The notes beneath the pieces are model-generated. The model saw only the letters and a list, made by a program, of their open reading frames with translations, ran no database searches and was not told the origin of the DNA. Of a stretch of DNA of 64,000 bases, positions 3,505 to 9,840 are shown piece by piece. A program made the position numbers and the translations under genes. Positions within the stretch are counted from its first letter, which is position 1; each line of letters starts with the position of its first letter. Origin of the DNA: Planctomycetaceae bacterium (lineage in GTDB: Bacteria; Planctomycetota; Planctomycetia; Pirellulales; Pirellulaceae); the NCBI GenBank assembly GCA_005778405.1, contig SXOA01000060.1, positions 1 through 64,000 of the forward strand, given 5' to 3'.

Positions 3505-4788
3505 CTACTTCCCCCCACTTTTGGCCATTTTTTCCTCCAGCAACATCAGCAGCAGGCTTTGCTCTAGCTGCCGTGGTTTGTAAGCGAAGGGACCGCGGCC
3601 CCCCTTGTATGCGACCTTTCCTTGCCGGTCGATTAGATACAGCCGGTCCGGAAAGCCGCTGTAGGCTCGATTCACCTGGTCGTCGATCGTATCCACAAGT
3701 AGCGGCATGGTCAGATGAAGGGCCGTGCAGCATTTACTGGCCGCCAGATTCCTGGCCTCGGCCGTTTTGGGCTGATCGATGGTCACTCCCACCCGAGCAT
3801 TCGAACTCATCTTCCAGCCATCGGCAGGATGGGCTTCACGGATGTAGACGGCATAGACATCGACCTGATCTTTGTAACGGGCAAACAGCTTGTCGAGGAT
3901 CCCAGCCTGGGATCGAAAGGGGCCTCACGTAAAACTGCCGAAAATGAGGATAACCGGTTTCCCTTTGGATTTGGAGAGCGTGAAGGTCTCCTTTCCGTCA
4001 TGGGTGGGGAGCGTGAAATCCGGGGCATCTTCTCCCGGCTTAGGTCCGGCACCCCAGATGCCGAGCTCGCCGCTGAAGAACATCGACAGCATTTTGTCGG
4101 GGCCGGGCATGTCGTCGCTGCCGCTGTTGAGGACCGACATCGCGCTATTGAAGTCGCTGTCCAAGTCGTCCACGGTCAGAAAGCCCGCCTTGTCCTTGTC
4201 CACACCTTTGATCCAGTTCTGGATTTCTTCGGGAGTGATACGCCCATTGGAGTCGGTGTCAATCACCGCCAAAAGAAACCGGCTCATCATTTGGGGAGGG
4301 GTGGGAGGCTGTCGGCTGAAGAAATCGAAGTCGGCCGAGCGGAGCTCGCCGTCGCCATCGCGGTCGAGGCGGGAGTGAAACATTTCCGCGTACGGCAAAT
4401 CCTGGGGCAACTCGCCCTTGGCAATCAGACCGTCCTTATTGGCATCCAGCCTGGTCGAAATCCACTTCCAGTCATACCTGGCGACGCCCGGCTGAAACCA
4501 GCCGACACCCAGATTGATTGGCTCCCGCTTGAGCAATGGAATCAGCATCTCAACCCATTCCGGCCGGCGGTCTTGCCAGTCATTGGCGAGCATTCCCGCG
4601 AAAGTCTTGCGATTCTCGGGAGTGAGCTTGTCCACTATGGCCGCCAGCGAAGCCGGGTCCGCACCGGCTGAGTTGGCTTCGCCTGCGGCGGGTTTGACTT
4701 CCTGAGCGAGCAATGAGGTCGGCATCACGAAAGCGAAGGCTGCGAAAAGCAGTCCGCTCCGCAATAGGTTCAGGCGAAATGAGGACAT
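3505..4788 (-). CDS. EF-hand / iodothyronine deiodinase-like protein with in-frame TGA (likely selenoprotein)
   Basis: Read through a TGA at 3925-3927, this gene gives 427 residues. A signal peptide (residues 1-29; start at ATG 4788, an upstream ATG at 4830 is possible) is followed by four EF-hand loops beginning near residues 115, 142, 177 and 197 (DANKDG, DRDGDG, DTDSNG, DKDKAG). A thioredoxin-fold domain of the type I deiodinase family starts near residue 250. The active site reads FGSFT-U-GPFR with U at residue 288; beyond it come VYIREAHPADGW and a tail (MPLLVDT...RLYLIDRQGKVAYKGGRGPF) that match deiodinases closely. Bacterial members are probably redox enzymes of the periplasm, not hormone deiodinases. 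Without Sec insertion the product would stop after residue 287 and lose its active site. Confidence 0.85.
3898..3914 (-). promoter_or_regulatory. Candidate bacterial SECIS hairpin
   Basis: On the minus strand, 10 nt after the TGA at 3925-3927, the sequence GATCCCA-GGC-TGGGATC forms a perfect 7-bp stem with a 3-nt loop starting with G. The loop begins 17 nt after the TGA (18th nt). My recollection of the bacterial SECIS model is a loop of 3-14 nt with a G in its first two positions, a stem of 4-16 bp, and 16-37 nt from UGA to loop; all are met. It lies within coding sequence, as bacterial SECIS elements must. Confidence 0.75.
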
Positions 4789-4929
4789 GGGTCGATTCGC
4801 AGGGACGGCAAAACAATAGGTGTTGCGCATATCCTTAGTTTAGCTTACGCTGCCTGCAAAATGCACGTTCTGGCCGTCCAATAATTTCCGCCATTTCCCC
4901 TCATTCCACTCATTGGCTACCATAAATCC

Positions 4930-6734: not shown

Positions 6735-7586
6735 ATGGAAAGGATCGATCATCGTCACCACGATCTGCCGCAGCGTGAGGGCATTCCGTCCGACGGGGAG
6801 CCGCGGCCATCATTGAGCGCCGTCCCTGAATTTGCGCCAGCGGATAGCGAAGAGTTGCGTTTCACGCTCAAAGAGATGTTCTTGGCCACGACGTTGGCGG
6901 CAGTGATGCTGGCCCTTTTCCGCTCTCTCGGAATCTACGGAGCCGTATTCTCGTTCCTCTCCGCAGCTCTTGCCACGCTGTACATATTCCCTCACATGTT
7001 TCCCCAGGACCGCCCACGCCAGCGTATGTATTTTGACTTTGTCTGGGGCATCGTGATGCCCATTGTCTGCCTGCTGTTTGATCCAATCGTATTCAAGAAT
7101 GGGGATTTCGCTGGCAACGACCCGCTCGTGTTCCCCCCGCAGCAGCCGTTCAGTATCGAGAACCTGTCGCAGATTCACATCAATCCGACCGCGTACTATG
7201 CCTGGCCCATGCTGGCGGGACAAATCGCCACGCTGGAAATGGTGCTCGCCTGGGGCAAATCGTTGCGACCTGTCGCTCCCATCCTCGCGGGATTCTTGGC
7301 AACCGGATTTGTCATCTCACTGTGCCTGAGCGTTTTTCTGGTTCTTCCCGCCGCGCTGGGAACGCTGTTTTTCGGAATCGGCTTGCTTGGCTTCACGCCG
7401 ATCTTCACTTGCTTCGCCTATTTTCGACGGATGCGCTTGATGTGGTTCGTTGCCCGCGGGGAGCGATCCCACGAATGGCAACTGGCCCTGGCGGCGCTGG
7501 GCATCATCCTGTGCCTGGCTCTGGCTTGGGCCATTGGTACGATCGCGCTAAATGCCGTGCCCCCCAAAGCGACCATCAACTGGTGA
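6735..7586 (+). CDS. Polytopic membrane protein of unknown function
   Basis: I start this at ATG 6735, which has AAGG about 6 nt upstream; an ATG at 6630 would add 35 residues with no membrane or signal character. The 283-residue product has a charged N-terminus of about 50 residues, then the phrase LRFTLKEMFLATTLAAVMLALF, seen as a membrane entry motif in many planctomycetal hypothetical proteins. About seven hydrophobic segments follow. It lies 131 nt after the kinase on the same strand, and its last 11 bases overlap the end of the convergent TIM-barrel gene. No catalytic motif was recognised. Confidence 0.6.
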   Translation: MERIDHRHHDLPQREGIPSDGEPRPSLSAVPEFAPADSEELRFTLKEMFLATTLAAVMLALFRSLGIYGAVFSFLSAALATLYIFPHMFPQDRPRQRMYFDFVWGIVMPIVCLLFDPIVFKNGDFAGNDPLVFPPQQPFSIENLSQIHINPTAYYAWPMLAGQIATLEMVLAWGKSLRPVAPILAGFLATGFVISLCLSVFLVLPAALGTLFFGIGLLGFTPIFTCFAYFRRMRLMWFVARGERSHEWQLALAALGIILCLALAWAIGTIALNAVPPKATINW

Positions 7587-8520
7587 ACGCCGTGCGTAGA
7601 AACGCCAGGCTCTTGGGGATGGCAATCTTAGGGTCTTCCTTCCCTTCAAACTCCAGCGACACAAAGCCGCGATAGTTGTGCTTGTGGAAGATCTTGGCGA
7701 TCCGGTCGTAGTCGAGATCGAGCTGATACCAAAGTCCGCCGCCGTAATAGGTCTTGGCTTGCAGCAGGATCGTCCTGGGAGCCAGCAATTCCAGCCGGTC
7801 GTAAGGGTCTTCCAAGAAGTTGCCAGTATCGGCTGTAACCTGCAGCCAAGGTGACTTGATGGCATCCACAATCCTCAGCACTCCTTCCGCGGTAATGCCC
7901 AAACCCCAATGGTTTTCCAGCCCGAGCAGCACGCCGCACTTTTCCGCGGTGGGCAGGATTTTCTCAAAGCTATCGATCACCCACTTGAACCCGTCCTCAT
8001 CGGTATATCCCGGCAGCCGCGGCTCGATCCCCCGGTTCTTCATCAGCTCGTCAAAATCCTTGCTCGTCCCCCAGCGGCCCGTGTTGACCCGCATCGTCGG
8101 AATGCCGAGAGCGTACGCGAGCTCGATGCAGTGAATAGTGTGGTCGATGTTCTTCTTCCGCTCTTCCTCCTTTGGCGAGACAAACCCCTGGTGCGTGGAA
8201 AAGCCCATCAGGGCCAGCCCATTCACAAACGCCCGCTTCTTGAGCTTCTGCAAATAGCCGTTCTCCTCGTTCGTCATCTGCCGGTGCAGAATCTCGACGC
8301 CGTCAAATCCCCACTCCGCCGCCAGGTCGATGCACTTCTCGATGTCGCGATACTCTTCGTGCTCGAATTGCCAGAAGGAGTAGGTGGAGATGCCGATGGG
8401 GTTGGACCGAGGAGTCTCCTTTGCGGCCGCGGCTTGTGGCTTATCATCTGCCCGACCTTGCGCGGCGGAAAGCGACAAGGCTGCGGCACCTGCGAGTAAT
8501 TCGCGACGGCTGAGAGTCAT
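7576..8520 (-). CDS. Exported sugar phosphate isomerase/epimerase-like TIM-barrel protein
   Basis: The 314-residue protein begins with a Tat-type signal (SRRELLAGAAALSLSAAQG) and then a xylose-isomerase-like TIM barrel (AP endonuclease 2 superfamily). Visible barrel landmarks are ISTYSFWQFE, GFDGVEILH, GVLLGLENHWG, LQVTADTGNF and FVSLEFEGKEDP; the Glu/Asp/His residues in these strands are the usual metal ligands. Members act on sugars or inositols; the substrate cannot be told here. AAGGA lies about 9 nt before the ATG. serS lies 33 nt upstream on the same strand. Confidence 0.8.
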   Translation of the reverse strand: MTLSRRELLAGAAALSLSAAQGRADDKPQAAAAKETPRSNPIGISTYSFWQFEHEEYRDIEKCIDLAAEWGFDGVEILHRQMTNEENGYLQKLKKRAFVNGLALMGFSTHQGFVSPKEEERKKNIDHTIHCIELAYALGIPTMRVNTGRWGTSKDFDELMKNRGIEPRLPGYTDEDGFKWVIDSFEKILPTAEKCGVLLGLENHWGLGITAEGVLRIVDAIKSPWLQVTADTGNFLEDPYDRLELLAPRTILLQAKTYYGGGLWYQLDLDYDRIAKIFHKHNYRGFVSLEFEGKEDPKIAIPKSLAFLRTAFTS

Positions 8521-8553: not shown

Positions 8554-9840
8554 TCAGACTTTGGGCGTCATCTTTTCCTTCCCCATCCACCCTTGCAATG
8601 CCCGCGGCACTTCCACGCTGCCATCCGCCTGTTGATAGTTTTCGAGGACCGCAATCAAGGCCCGGCTGAGGGCGATGGCGGTGCCGTTGAGGGTATGGGC
8701 GAAGCGGGTTCCTTTTTCGTCCTTCCTTTTGGAGCGGATGTTGAGGCGGCGAGCCTGGTAGTCGGTGCAGTTGCTGGTACTGGTGACTTCTCCCCACTCG
8801 CCGCCGGTGCCGCGGCCGGGCATCCAGGCTTCCAGGTCGTACTTACGATAGGCGGGGCCGCCGAGATCGCCGCTGGCGGTGTCGATCACGCGATAGGGTA
8901 TGCCCAGGCCGTCAAAGATGTCGCATTCGATGTCGCGAAGTTGCTCGAGCATGGCATCGCTCTGCTCTGGGAGCGTGAAGGCAAACATCTCCACCTTGGT
9001 GAATTGATGCACGCGATAAATTCCGCGAGTTGCCTTGCCCGCTGCTCCCGCTTCGGTGCGAAAGCAGTGGCTGATGCCGGCCAGTTTGATGGGGAGTTTT
9101 TCGGCGTCGATGGTTTGCTCGGCATACATTCCGCCGAGCGTGATCTCCGCGGTTCCCACCAGGCACAAGTCGCTCCCCGCAATGCTGTAAATCTGTGTCT
9201 CCGGCCCGCGAGGGTTATAGCCGGTCCCCATCAGAACTTCCTGGCGAGCCAGGTCCGGCGTTGTCGTGAGCGTGAAGCCGTGCCGTGAGAGTACATCCAC
9301 GGCATAGCGCTGCAGGGCAAGGTCAAGCAGCACGCAGTCGTTTTTTAGAAAGTAGAAGCCGTGCCCAGTCGTCCGTGCTCCCGCTTCGAAATCGAACAGG
9401 TCGAGCTTCTCCCCCAATTCCACATGGTCGAGTGCTTTGAAATCGAATTTGCGAACCTCAGACTTTCCCCGGCGGACTTCGACGTTGGCATGGTCCCCGC
9501 TGCCGACCGGCGCGGCGGGATGGGTCATGTTGGGAACGAGCAGTTGAACTTCACGGGCCTCGGCATCCAGTTTGTCATGCTCGGCCTGCGCAGCATCCTT
9601 GGCATCCCTCAGCTTGCGGCCTTCTTCCTTCTTGGCATTCCGTTCCGCTTCGTCTTTCGCCTTGCCGATACTTTTGGCAAACTCGTTCGCCTTCCGGTTT
9701 AGCTCTTCGACTTCGAGCAATTTCGCCCGCCGTTGCTCCTCAAGTTGCACTAGCCGGTCCACATCGCAGCTCATCCCGCGGTTCGCACAGTTTTGTTTGA
9801 CGGCAGCAGCGTTCTCAACAATGAATTTGCGTTCGAGCAT
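8554..9840 (-). CDS. serS: Seryl-tRNA synthetase
   Basis: This 428-residue class II aminoacyl-tRNA synthetase charges tRNA-Ser (and tRNA-Sec where present) with serine. The N-terminal long coiled-coil arm that holds the tRNA is visible from about residue 27 to 100 (Lys/Glu/Ala-rich). The catalytic core shows the serine-binding GTAEITLGGM region, motif 2 (HCFRTEAGAAGK...) and motif 3 (NGTAIALSRALIAVLEN) near the C-terminus. Length is normal. The product would also make the Ser-tRNA-Sec needed for the selenoprotein proposed at 3505. It precedes the TIM-barrel gene closely. Confidence 0.97.
   Translation of the reverse strand: MLERKFIVENAAAVKQNCANRGMSCDVDRLVQLEEQRRAKLLEVEELNRKANEFAKSIGKAKDEAERNAKKEEGRKLRDAKDAAQAEHDKLDAEAREVQLLVPNMTHPAAPVGSGDHANVEVRRGKSEVRKFDFKALDHVELGEKLDLFDFEAGARTTGHGFYFLKNDCVLLDLALQRYAVDVLSRHGFTLTTTPDLARQEVLMGTGYNPRGPETQIYSIAGSDLCLVGTAEITLGGMYAEQTIDAEKLPIKLAGISHCFRTEAGAAGKATRGIYRVHQFTKVEMFAFTLPEQSDAMLEQLRDIECDIFDGLGIPYRVIDTASGDLGGPAYRKYDLEAWMPGRGTGGEWGEVTSTSNCTDYQARRLNIRSKRKDEKGTRFAHTLNGTAIALSRALIAVLENYQQADGSVEVPRALQGWMGKEKMTPKV

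Follow-up and report, generated by a model that had tools for sequence, protein, structure and literature searches.

The gene described here lies on the minus strand of a 64,000-nt stretch of planctomycete DNA, which is referred to below as the window. The coding sequence (3505..4788, minus strand) extends from an ATG at 4788 to a TAG stop at 3505-3507, and on translation the frame from 4788 to 3505 contains a single in-frame TGA, at 3925-3927. With this UGA read as selenocysteine (Sec), the product is 427 aa long and carries Sec as residue 288, the position equivalent to Sec170 of mouse Dio3; an in-frame ATG at 4830, upstream of 4788, is also a possible start. A sequence-only reading of the window had described the TGA as standing in the context FGSFT-TGA-GPFR and as being followed by 139 in-frame codons that include the motifs VYIREAHPADGW and VAYKGGRGPF. 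The context is present in the minus frame, both motifs were found, and the 139 codons run up to the TAG. A di-haem cytochrome c peroxidase gene (CCP_MauG, E 1.2e-56) is located downstream at 1702-2766, also on the minus strand, and an operon comprising this gene and the selenoprotein gene is only putative. When a conserved neighbourhood was looked for, few ORFs at the 79 named homologue loci were matched by the flanking genes; the recurrent families at these loci are, in our reading, the deiodinase gene itself, antisense reading frames and prepilin-type proteins.

The protein begins with a likely secretory (Sec-type) signal peptide (residues 1-29, MSSFR...LLAQ; 4702..4788, minus strand), judged by eye from the translation, and the N-terminus of the AlphaFold model is of low confidence. 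An EF-hand pair is matched by PF13499 at residues 140-193 (4210..4371, minus strand; E 1.2e-7, 32.4 bits, cut-off 30). The deiodinase domain PF00837, which has a thioredoxin/peroxiredoxin fold, occupies residues 250-410 (3559..4041, minus strand; E 4.7e-30), and its match spans the TGA in the read-through protein and scores 105.1 bits against a cut-off of 27. The NCBIfam family NF038285 (deiodinase_rel, 'deiodinase family protein') matches residues 70-419 with 396.7 bits (cut-off 250), covering model positions 2-347 of 347. The AlphaFold model was built on a 44-sequence alignment, own protein included, and has a mean pLDDT of 88.7 and a pTM of 0.86. Searched by sequence against the PDB, the protein is closest to mouse Dio3 (4tr3, E 5.7e-21, 31 % identity) and Dio2 (9h48, E 6.9e-20, 30 % identity), compared with an E-value of 2.8e-7 for the best chain outside the deiodinases. 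The same two structures rank first by Foldseek E-value (8.3e-12 for 4tr3 and 9.5e-11 for 9h48), followed by ResA and AhpE-type proteins, and the target-normalised TM-score of ResA (0.82-0.85) is above those of Dio3 and Dio2 (0.73 and 0.77).

A hairpin with the sequence GATCCCA-GGC-TGGGATC is located at 3898..3914 on the minus strand, and has a 7-bp stem, a 3-nt loop and 17 nt from the UGA to the loop. It is the perfect 7-bp hairpin with a GGC loop that had been noticed 10 nt past the TGA and proposed to fit the bacterial SECIS model. In the published bSECIS model the loop has 3-9 nt with a G in the first two loop bases, the stem has 4-16 bp, the distance from the UGA is 16-37 nt and the MFE is at most -7.5 (PMC13188914), and the loop, stem, distance and energy (-10.7 kcal/mol) of the hairpin all fall within these limits. 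The folding energy is unremarkable (z 0.26), with 114 of 200 dinucleotide shuffles folding equally well or better; it gives no support by itself, and hairpin tests based on homologues were therefore used.

The homologue loci included the best 80 of at least 587 confirmed stretches (79 loci), all planctomycete-named by title. A pattern scan that required EAH downstream of the site was applied to 137 of 161 loci, with L030-L053 (sel, elongation-factor and tRNA loci) excluded. Nine loci gave no hit and 6/137 hits were spurious, which left 131 rows (77 Sec and 54 Cys), some of them one gene fetched twice, and these collapse to 66 Sec and 53 Cys distinct 42-mers. The geometry was fixed and ungapped, with the T of the TGA as 0 and pairs from 13-29 to 19-23, and at this geometry at least 6 of the 7 pairs are formed in 44/66 distinct TGA forms vs 0/53 distinct Cys forms. 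The nine missed loci were read separately and comprise five with TGA (two with at least 6/7 pairs) and four with Cys (none), so that the tally with these added is 46/71 TGA vs 0/57 Cys. Common ancestry inflates such pair counts, and a better control is given by the Cys forms, in which much of the peptide is unchanged. Synonymous recoding, in which the peptide was fixed and codons were drawn anew according to local codon usage in these genes, gave a pairing excess of z 17.9 for the TGA forms vs z 2.1 for the Cys forms, and all seven pairs arose in 18 of 20,000 recodings of the peptide of the gene described here. The unslid register has the highest pairing, which falls from 0.79 to at most 0.52 when one arm is slid; with partners swapped between sequences the pairing is 0.64, and z is 9.7 for TGA forms vs 0.9 for Cys forms. 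In the 40 perfect hairpins a single position can show as many as five types of pair. The bare bSECIS rules, with a 4-bp stem, are a weak discriminator, being satisfied by 64/66 TGA forms but also by 29/53 Cys forms, and a model stem of at least 6 bp is found in 56/66 TGA vs 3/53 Cys forms. Fewer than six pairs at the fixed geometry are formed in 22/66 TGA forms, 13 of which have a model stem of at least 6 bp elsewhere and two of which have none. The hairpin at 3898-3914 is the strongest of the local evidence, and is supported by computation as a SECIS element because of where it lies, because it covaries and because the Cys homologues do not have it.

The source genome (6.1 Mb in 203 contigs, 91.65 % complete) was searched for the sel genes, as the sequence-only reading had advised, and all were found: selA (558 bits, cut-off 268), selB (368 bits, cut-off 242), selD (271 bits, cut-off 125) and tRNA-Sec (65.5 bits, cut-off 47; ARAGORN anticodon tca). 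The genome has three PF00837 genes, with one TGA apiece at the same catalytic site, and the two paralogues (L001 and L003, on contigs C146 and C175) are Sec forms with 7-bp hairpins of the same geometry. EF-hand-like acidic repeats were seen by eye upstream in L001 and L003.

The advised comparison of homologues showed TGA or Cys at the site, with TGA accompanying the Sec machinery. Among 60 genomes, own genome included, a PF00837 match is present in 21, of which 14 have a TGA copy and seven have matches without a stop, and the TGA is at the catalytic site in all 21 TGA loci. A selB gene above the cut-off was found in 13/14 TGA genomes vs 1/7 no-stop genomes, the seven including G055 with a sub-cut-off match. 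The TGA genome without a selB hit (G024) is 78 % complete and has a tRNA-Sec of 69.9 bits, and G039 has TGA and selB with no tRNA-Sec hit under strict filters. Among the no-stop genomes, G032 has a tRNA-Sec and G017 has a weak match (50.7 bits, cut-off 47). In a larger set of 392 planctomycete genomes, 96 contain a PF00837 match with TGA, as classed from the matches listed for 116 of the 118 positives. In this set selB is present in 87/96 TGA genomes vs 149/296 others (Fisher p 1e-13), and the genomes are related, so that the p value is only a guide. The 9/96 TGA genomes without a selB hit are 64-90 % complete, and selB is present in 10/20 genomes that have only no-stop PF00837 matches, several of which are partial and may miss the site. 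The TGA is at the catalytic site in all 26 loci inspected across the phylum. One genome, G117, carries five PF00837 matches.

The sequence after the TGA had been claimed to be under protein-level constraint. For 24 listed pairs of TGA forms that are at least 79 % identical, dN/dS past the TGA is 0.11-0.29; values of 0.60-1.17 were obtained for 16 listed pairs at 60 % identity or less, which we attribute to saturation, and these pairs were set aside. The median dN/dS of all 1561 pairs is 0.37 after the TGA and 0.46 before it, and identity to the nearest relative (L054) is 72 % after the TGA vs 52 % before. The constraint claimed is thus seen as purifying selection among close relatives, with no sign of decay. 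Absence of selB/selC, homologues that all carry Cys or are without the downstream part, or missing SECIS support together with clear decay past the TGA had been named as evidence that would speak against a selenoprotein, and none of these occurred, the sel genes being present and the homologues having TGA or Cys.

An in-frame UGA at a position where homologues carry Cys, by which bacterial selenoproteins are recognised, is present in this gene. Because the UGA stands at the Cys/TGA site of the homologues, is followed by the hairpin and occurs in a genome with SelA, SelB, SelD and tRNA-Sec, the UGA at 3925-3927 is, with high confidence, predicted to be decoded as selenocysteine and the gene to encode a functional bacterial selenoprotein. 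Programmed read-through can likewise present as an in-frame stop with a hairpin after it, and the gene might be subject to regulatory stop read-through or early termination without selenocysteine. We consider this very improbable, since Cys occupies the site in every inspected homologue that has no TGA, TGA is found together with selB and tRNA-Sec, and termination at the UGA would delete residues 289-410 of the 250-410 domain. The chance that the gene is a pseudogene, or contains a sequencing error, through a recent nonsense change that truncates a Cys protein is smaller again. A lone TGA in an otherwise normal frame does resemble a single substitution from TGC or TGT, but TGA recurs at the same site in the three genes of this genome, the 21 loci of the 60 genomes and the 26 inspected phylum loci, constraint persists past it, and synonymous codon choice forms the hairpin in TGA forms only. 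These three observations bear out the view, taken from the letters of the window, that a recent nonsense mutation is unlikely. If TGA coded for an amino acid throughout the genome, a TGA read as sense in this deiodinase-like gene would be accounted for; such a reassignment has a negligible probability, as TGA terminates an AP_endonuc_2 gene (7576-8520) and a 428-aa gene (8554-9840) in the same window, 38/77 TGA homologue rows themselves terminate in TGA, and the genome has tRNA-Sec and SelB.

The predicted selenoprotein was compared with the Dio3 active-site residues named in PMC7506546 and PMC11592359. Ten of the Dio3 residues are identical (Ser167, Thr169, Sec170, Tyr197, Glu200, His202, Trp207, Arg225, Arg260 and Arg275), and three are changed (His219 to Pro, Phe258 to Pro and Tyr257 to Phe). 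Across the 77 Sec rows the His219 column is Pro in 64/77 and His in 8/77, and the Phe258 column is Pro in 77/77. The loop signature Y315..E318-A-H320 (3829..3846, minus strand) corresponds to Dio3 Tyr197, Glu200 and His202, with Trp325 (Trp207) next. The loop Tyr, Glu, Ala and His and the Arg225 and Arg260 positions are invariant in 27/27 sequences picked by PF00837, a set that omits L023 and L029, both of them sub-cut-off matches, of which L029 is without EAH; the catalytic site is Cys or TGA in 27/27 of these aligned homologues. The Glu200 and His202 columns of the 77 Sec rows are conserved by construction, as the pattern demanded EAH, and the 27-sequence count is the fair one. A second conserved cysteine, in Cys353-Cys354 (3727..3732, minus strand), is a candidate resolving residue. 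At least 90 % of the sequences in a 44-sequence alignment (A2) have C353, and a rough pattern scored a second Cys in at least 69/77 Sec rows and in 52/53 of the Cys rows scored; L014 and L066, at least, were missed because the pattern picked the wrong Arg. The Dio3 Ser167 column is Ser in 77/77 Sec rows vs Asn in 49/54 Cys rows and, as read from these rows, Ser167 to Asn is a putative active-site change that accompanies Cys in place of Sec.

A quick tree was made from the 131 bacterial rows, with the two mouse enzymes as outgroup and the Sec column masked, and on it the distribution of Sec and Cys needs five changes. One group of 49 Cys forms (SH-aLRT 88) is nested in the Sec forms, and the remaining Cys forms are single, two of them on long branches; the topology favours several apparent losses of Sec. 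In L058 (4042-5157 and 5194-6564) and L067 (two copies) a Cys gene is close beside a Sec (TGA) copy, and the Cys copy could possibly be a selenium-independent backup. L065 and L066 have two Sec copies each. The Cys forms of L006 (829-3318), L010 (883-3348), L077, L118, L127 and L155 are extended by a long stretch at the C-terminus. All six contain the motif CxYCMGHCE, and the extensions of L006 and L010 match the carboxymuconolactone decarboxylase/AhpD-type family PF02627. Extensions of at least 300 residues past the site occur in 5/77 Sec rows and 9/53 untruncated Cys rows.

The protein is probably exported, given the signal peptide recognised by eye, and its EF-hand part may bind Ca2+ and shape or tether the protein. 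The selenolate, held by a Dio-type network of Thr, Tyr, Glu, His and Arg, would attack an electrophilic substrate, and the oxidised selenium might then be resolved by C353 together with either a thiol from outside or a partner of the AhpD type, the participation of C353 being a guess. The candidate substrates are an oxidant of the peroxide type and a phenolic that carries halogen. Peroxide or thiol redox chemistry is suggested because the domain is fused to an AhpD/CMD-type domain in L006 and L010, and dehalogenation is possible because the deiodinase residue network is largely kept. We lean towards a periplasmic selenol oxidoreductase with general selenol redox chemistry. Genuine reductive deiodination or debromination of aromatics, as distinct from the activity of a peroxidase or disulfide-type redox protein, appears unlikely, while having several points in its favour: Dio3 and Dio2 are the nearest solved structures by sequence and by Foldseek E-value, the ten active-site residues are retained, and several of these inactivate Dio when mutated (PMC7506546). 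Against it, the Dio3 His219 and Phe258 positions are Pro in 64/77 and 77/77 Sec rows, the fold is common to ResA and AhpE, with a higher target-normalised TM-score for ResA, and the AhpD/CMD-type fusions suggest peroxide or thiol chemistry. It is quite unlikely that the Planctomycetota are a large, mostly Sec reservoir of extracytoplasmic iodo- or bromophenolic dehalogenases, with animal deiodinase chemistry born in bacteria and the Cys forms secondary; if true, thyroid-hormone deiodinase chemistry would originate in such bacteria. When TGA is treated as a stop in gene calling, the greater part of the catalytic domain is lost from this protein, and such planctomycete genes may often be misannotated as truncated. 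The likeness to thyroid deiodinases, together with the nested Cys forms, makes a pre-thyroid-hormone role of deiodinase-fold selenoenzymes testable, and likewise an advantage of Sec over Cys in an exported enzyme.

The protein type is already known, as bacterial Sec deiodinase-like proteins and an EF-hand fusion are in print. The Sargasso Sea survey of 2005 reported bacterial deiodinase-like proteins with four Sec forms (PMC1088965), and the GOS survey of 2008 reported 22 Sec forms and 21 Cys homologues (PMC2398784). As described there, these proteins resemble the present one in belonging to PF00837, in having Sec/UGA at the deiodinase site and in having Cys homologues too, and those of the Sargasso Sea also share a bacterial SECIS (PMC1088965); unlike the present one, they are metagenomic and without a named organism. 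The GOS survey gives the deiodinase-like proteins no redox motif (PMC2398784), and two later reviews assign UxxC to the bacterial family (PMC9312934, PMC13188914). In contrast to the exemplar of the reviews, the present protein has UGPF and UxxC occurs in 0/77 Sec rows; CxxC is likewise found in none of the bacterial Sec rows. A fusion of an EF-hand with a deiodinase-like selenoprotein was reported in 2021 from marine metagenomes (PMC9402790); its EF-hand belongs to PF13499, as here, and its main text does not contain the string 'planctomycet'. Unlike that metagenomic fusion, the gene described here is in a genome with its own Sec machinery and two paralogues. Sec machinery and selenoproteins are described for two planctomycetes in PMC4807772, from whose main text the word 'deiodinase' is absent, and in PMC6627142 'deiodinase' and 'Planctomycetes' occur only within the reference list. 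No report of a planctomycete deiodinase/EF-hand fusion was found in the open-licence PMC literature, and in the portion of that literature that was accessible no earlier report was found of the occurrence at the scale of the phylum or of the hairpin contrast between Sec and Cys forms. The family NF038285, which covers the protein, is a hypothetical-equivalog family with no function attached in the search output. ResA and AhpE-type proteins have the same overall fold and are weaker by sequence. Mouse Dio3 has the elements FGSxTU, Y..EAHPxDGW, RLY and GGRGP in common with the present protein; Dio3 and Dio2 are membrane enzymes, whereas the present one is probably an exported EF-hand protein that is deiodinase-like by sequence and by model.
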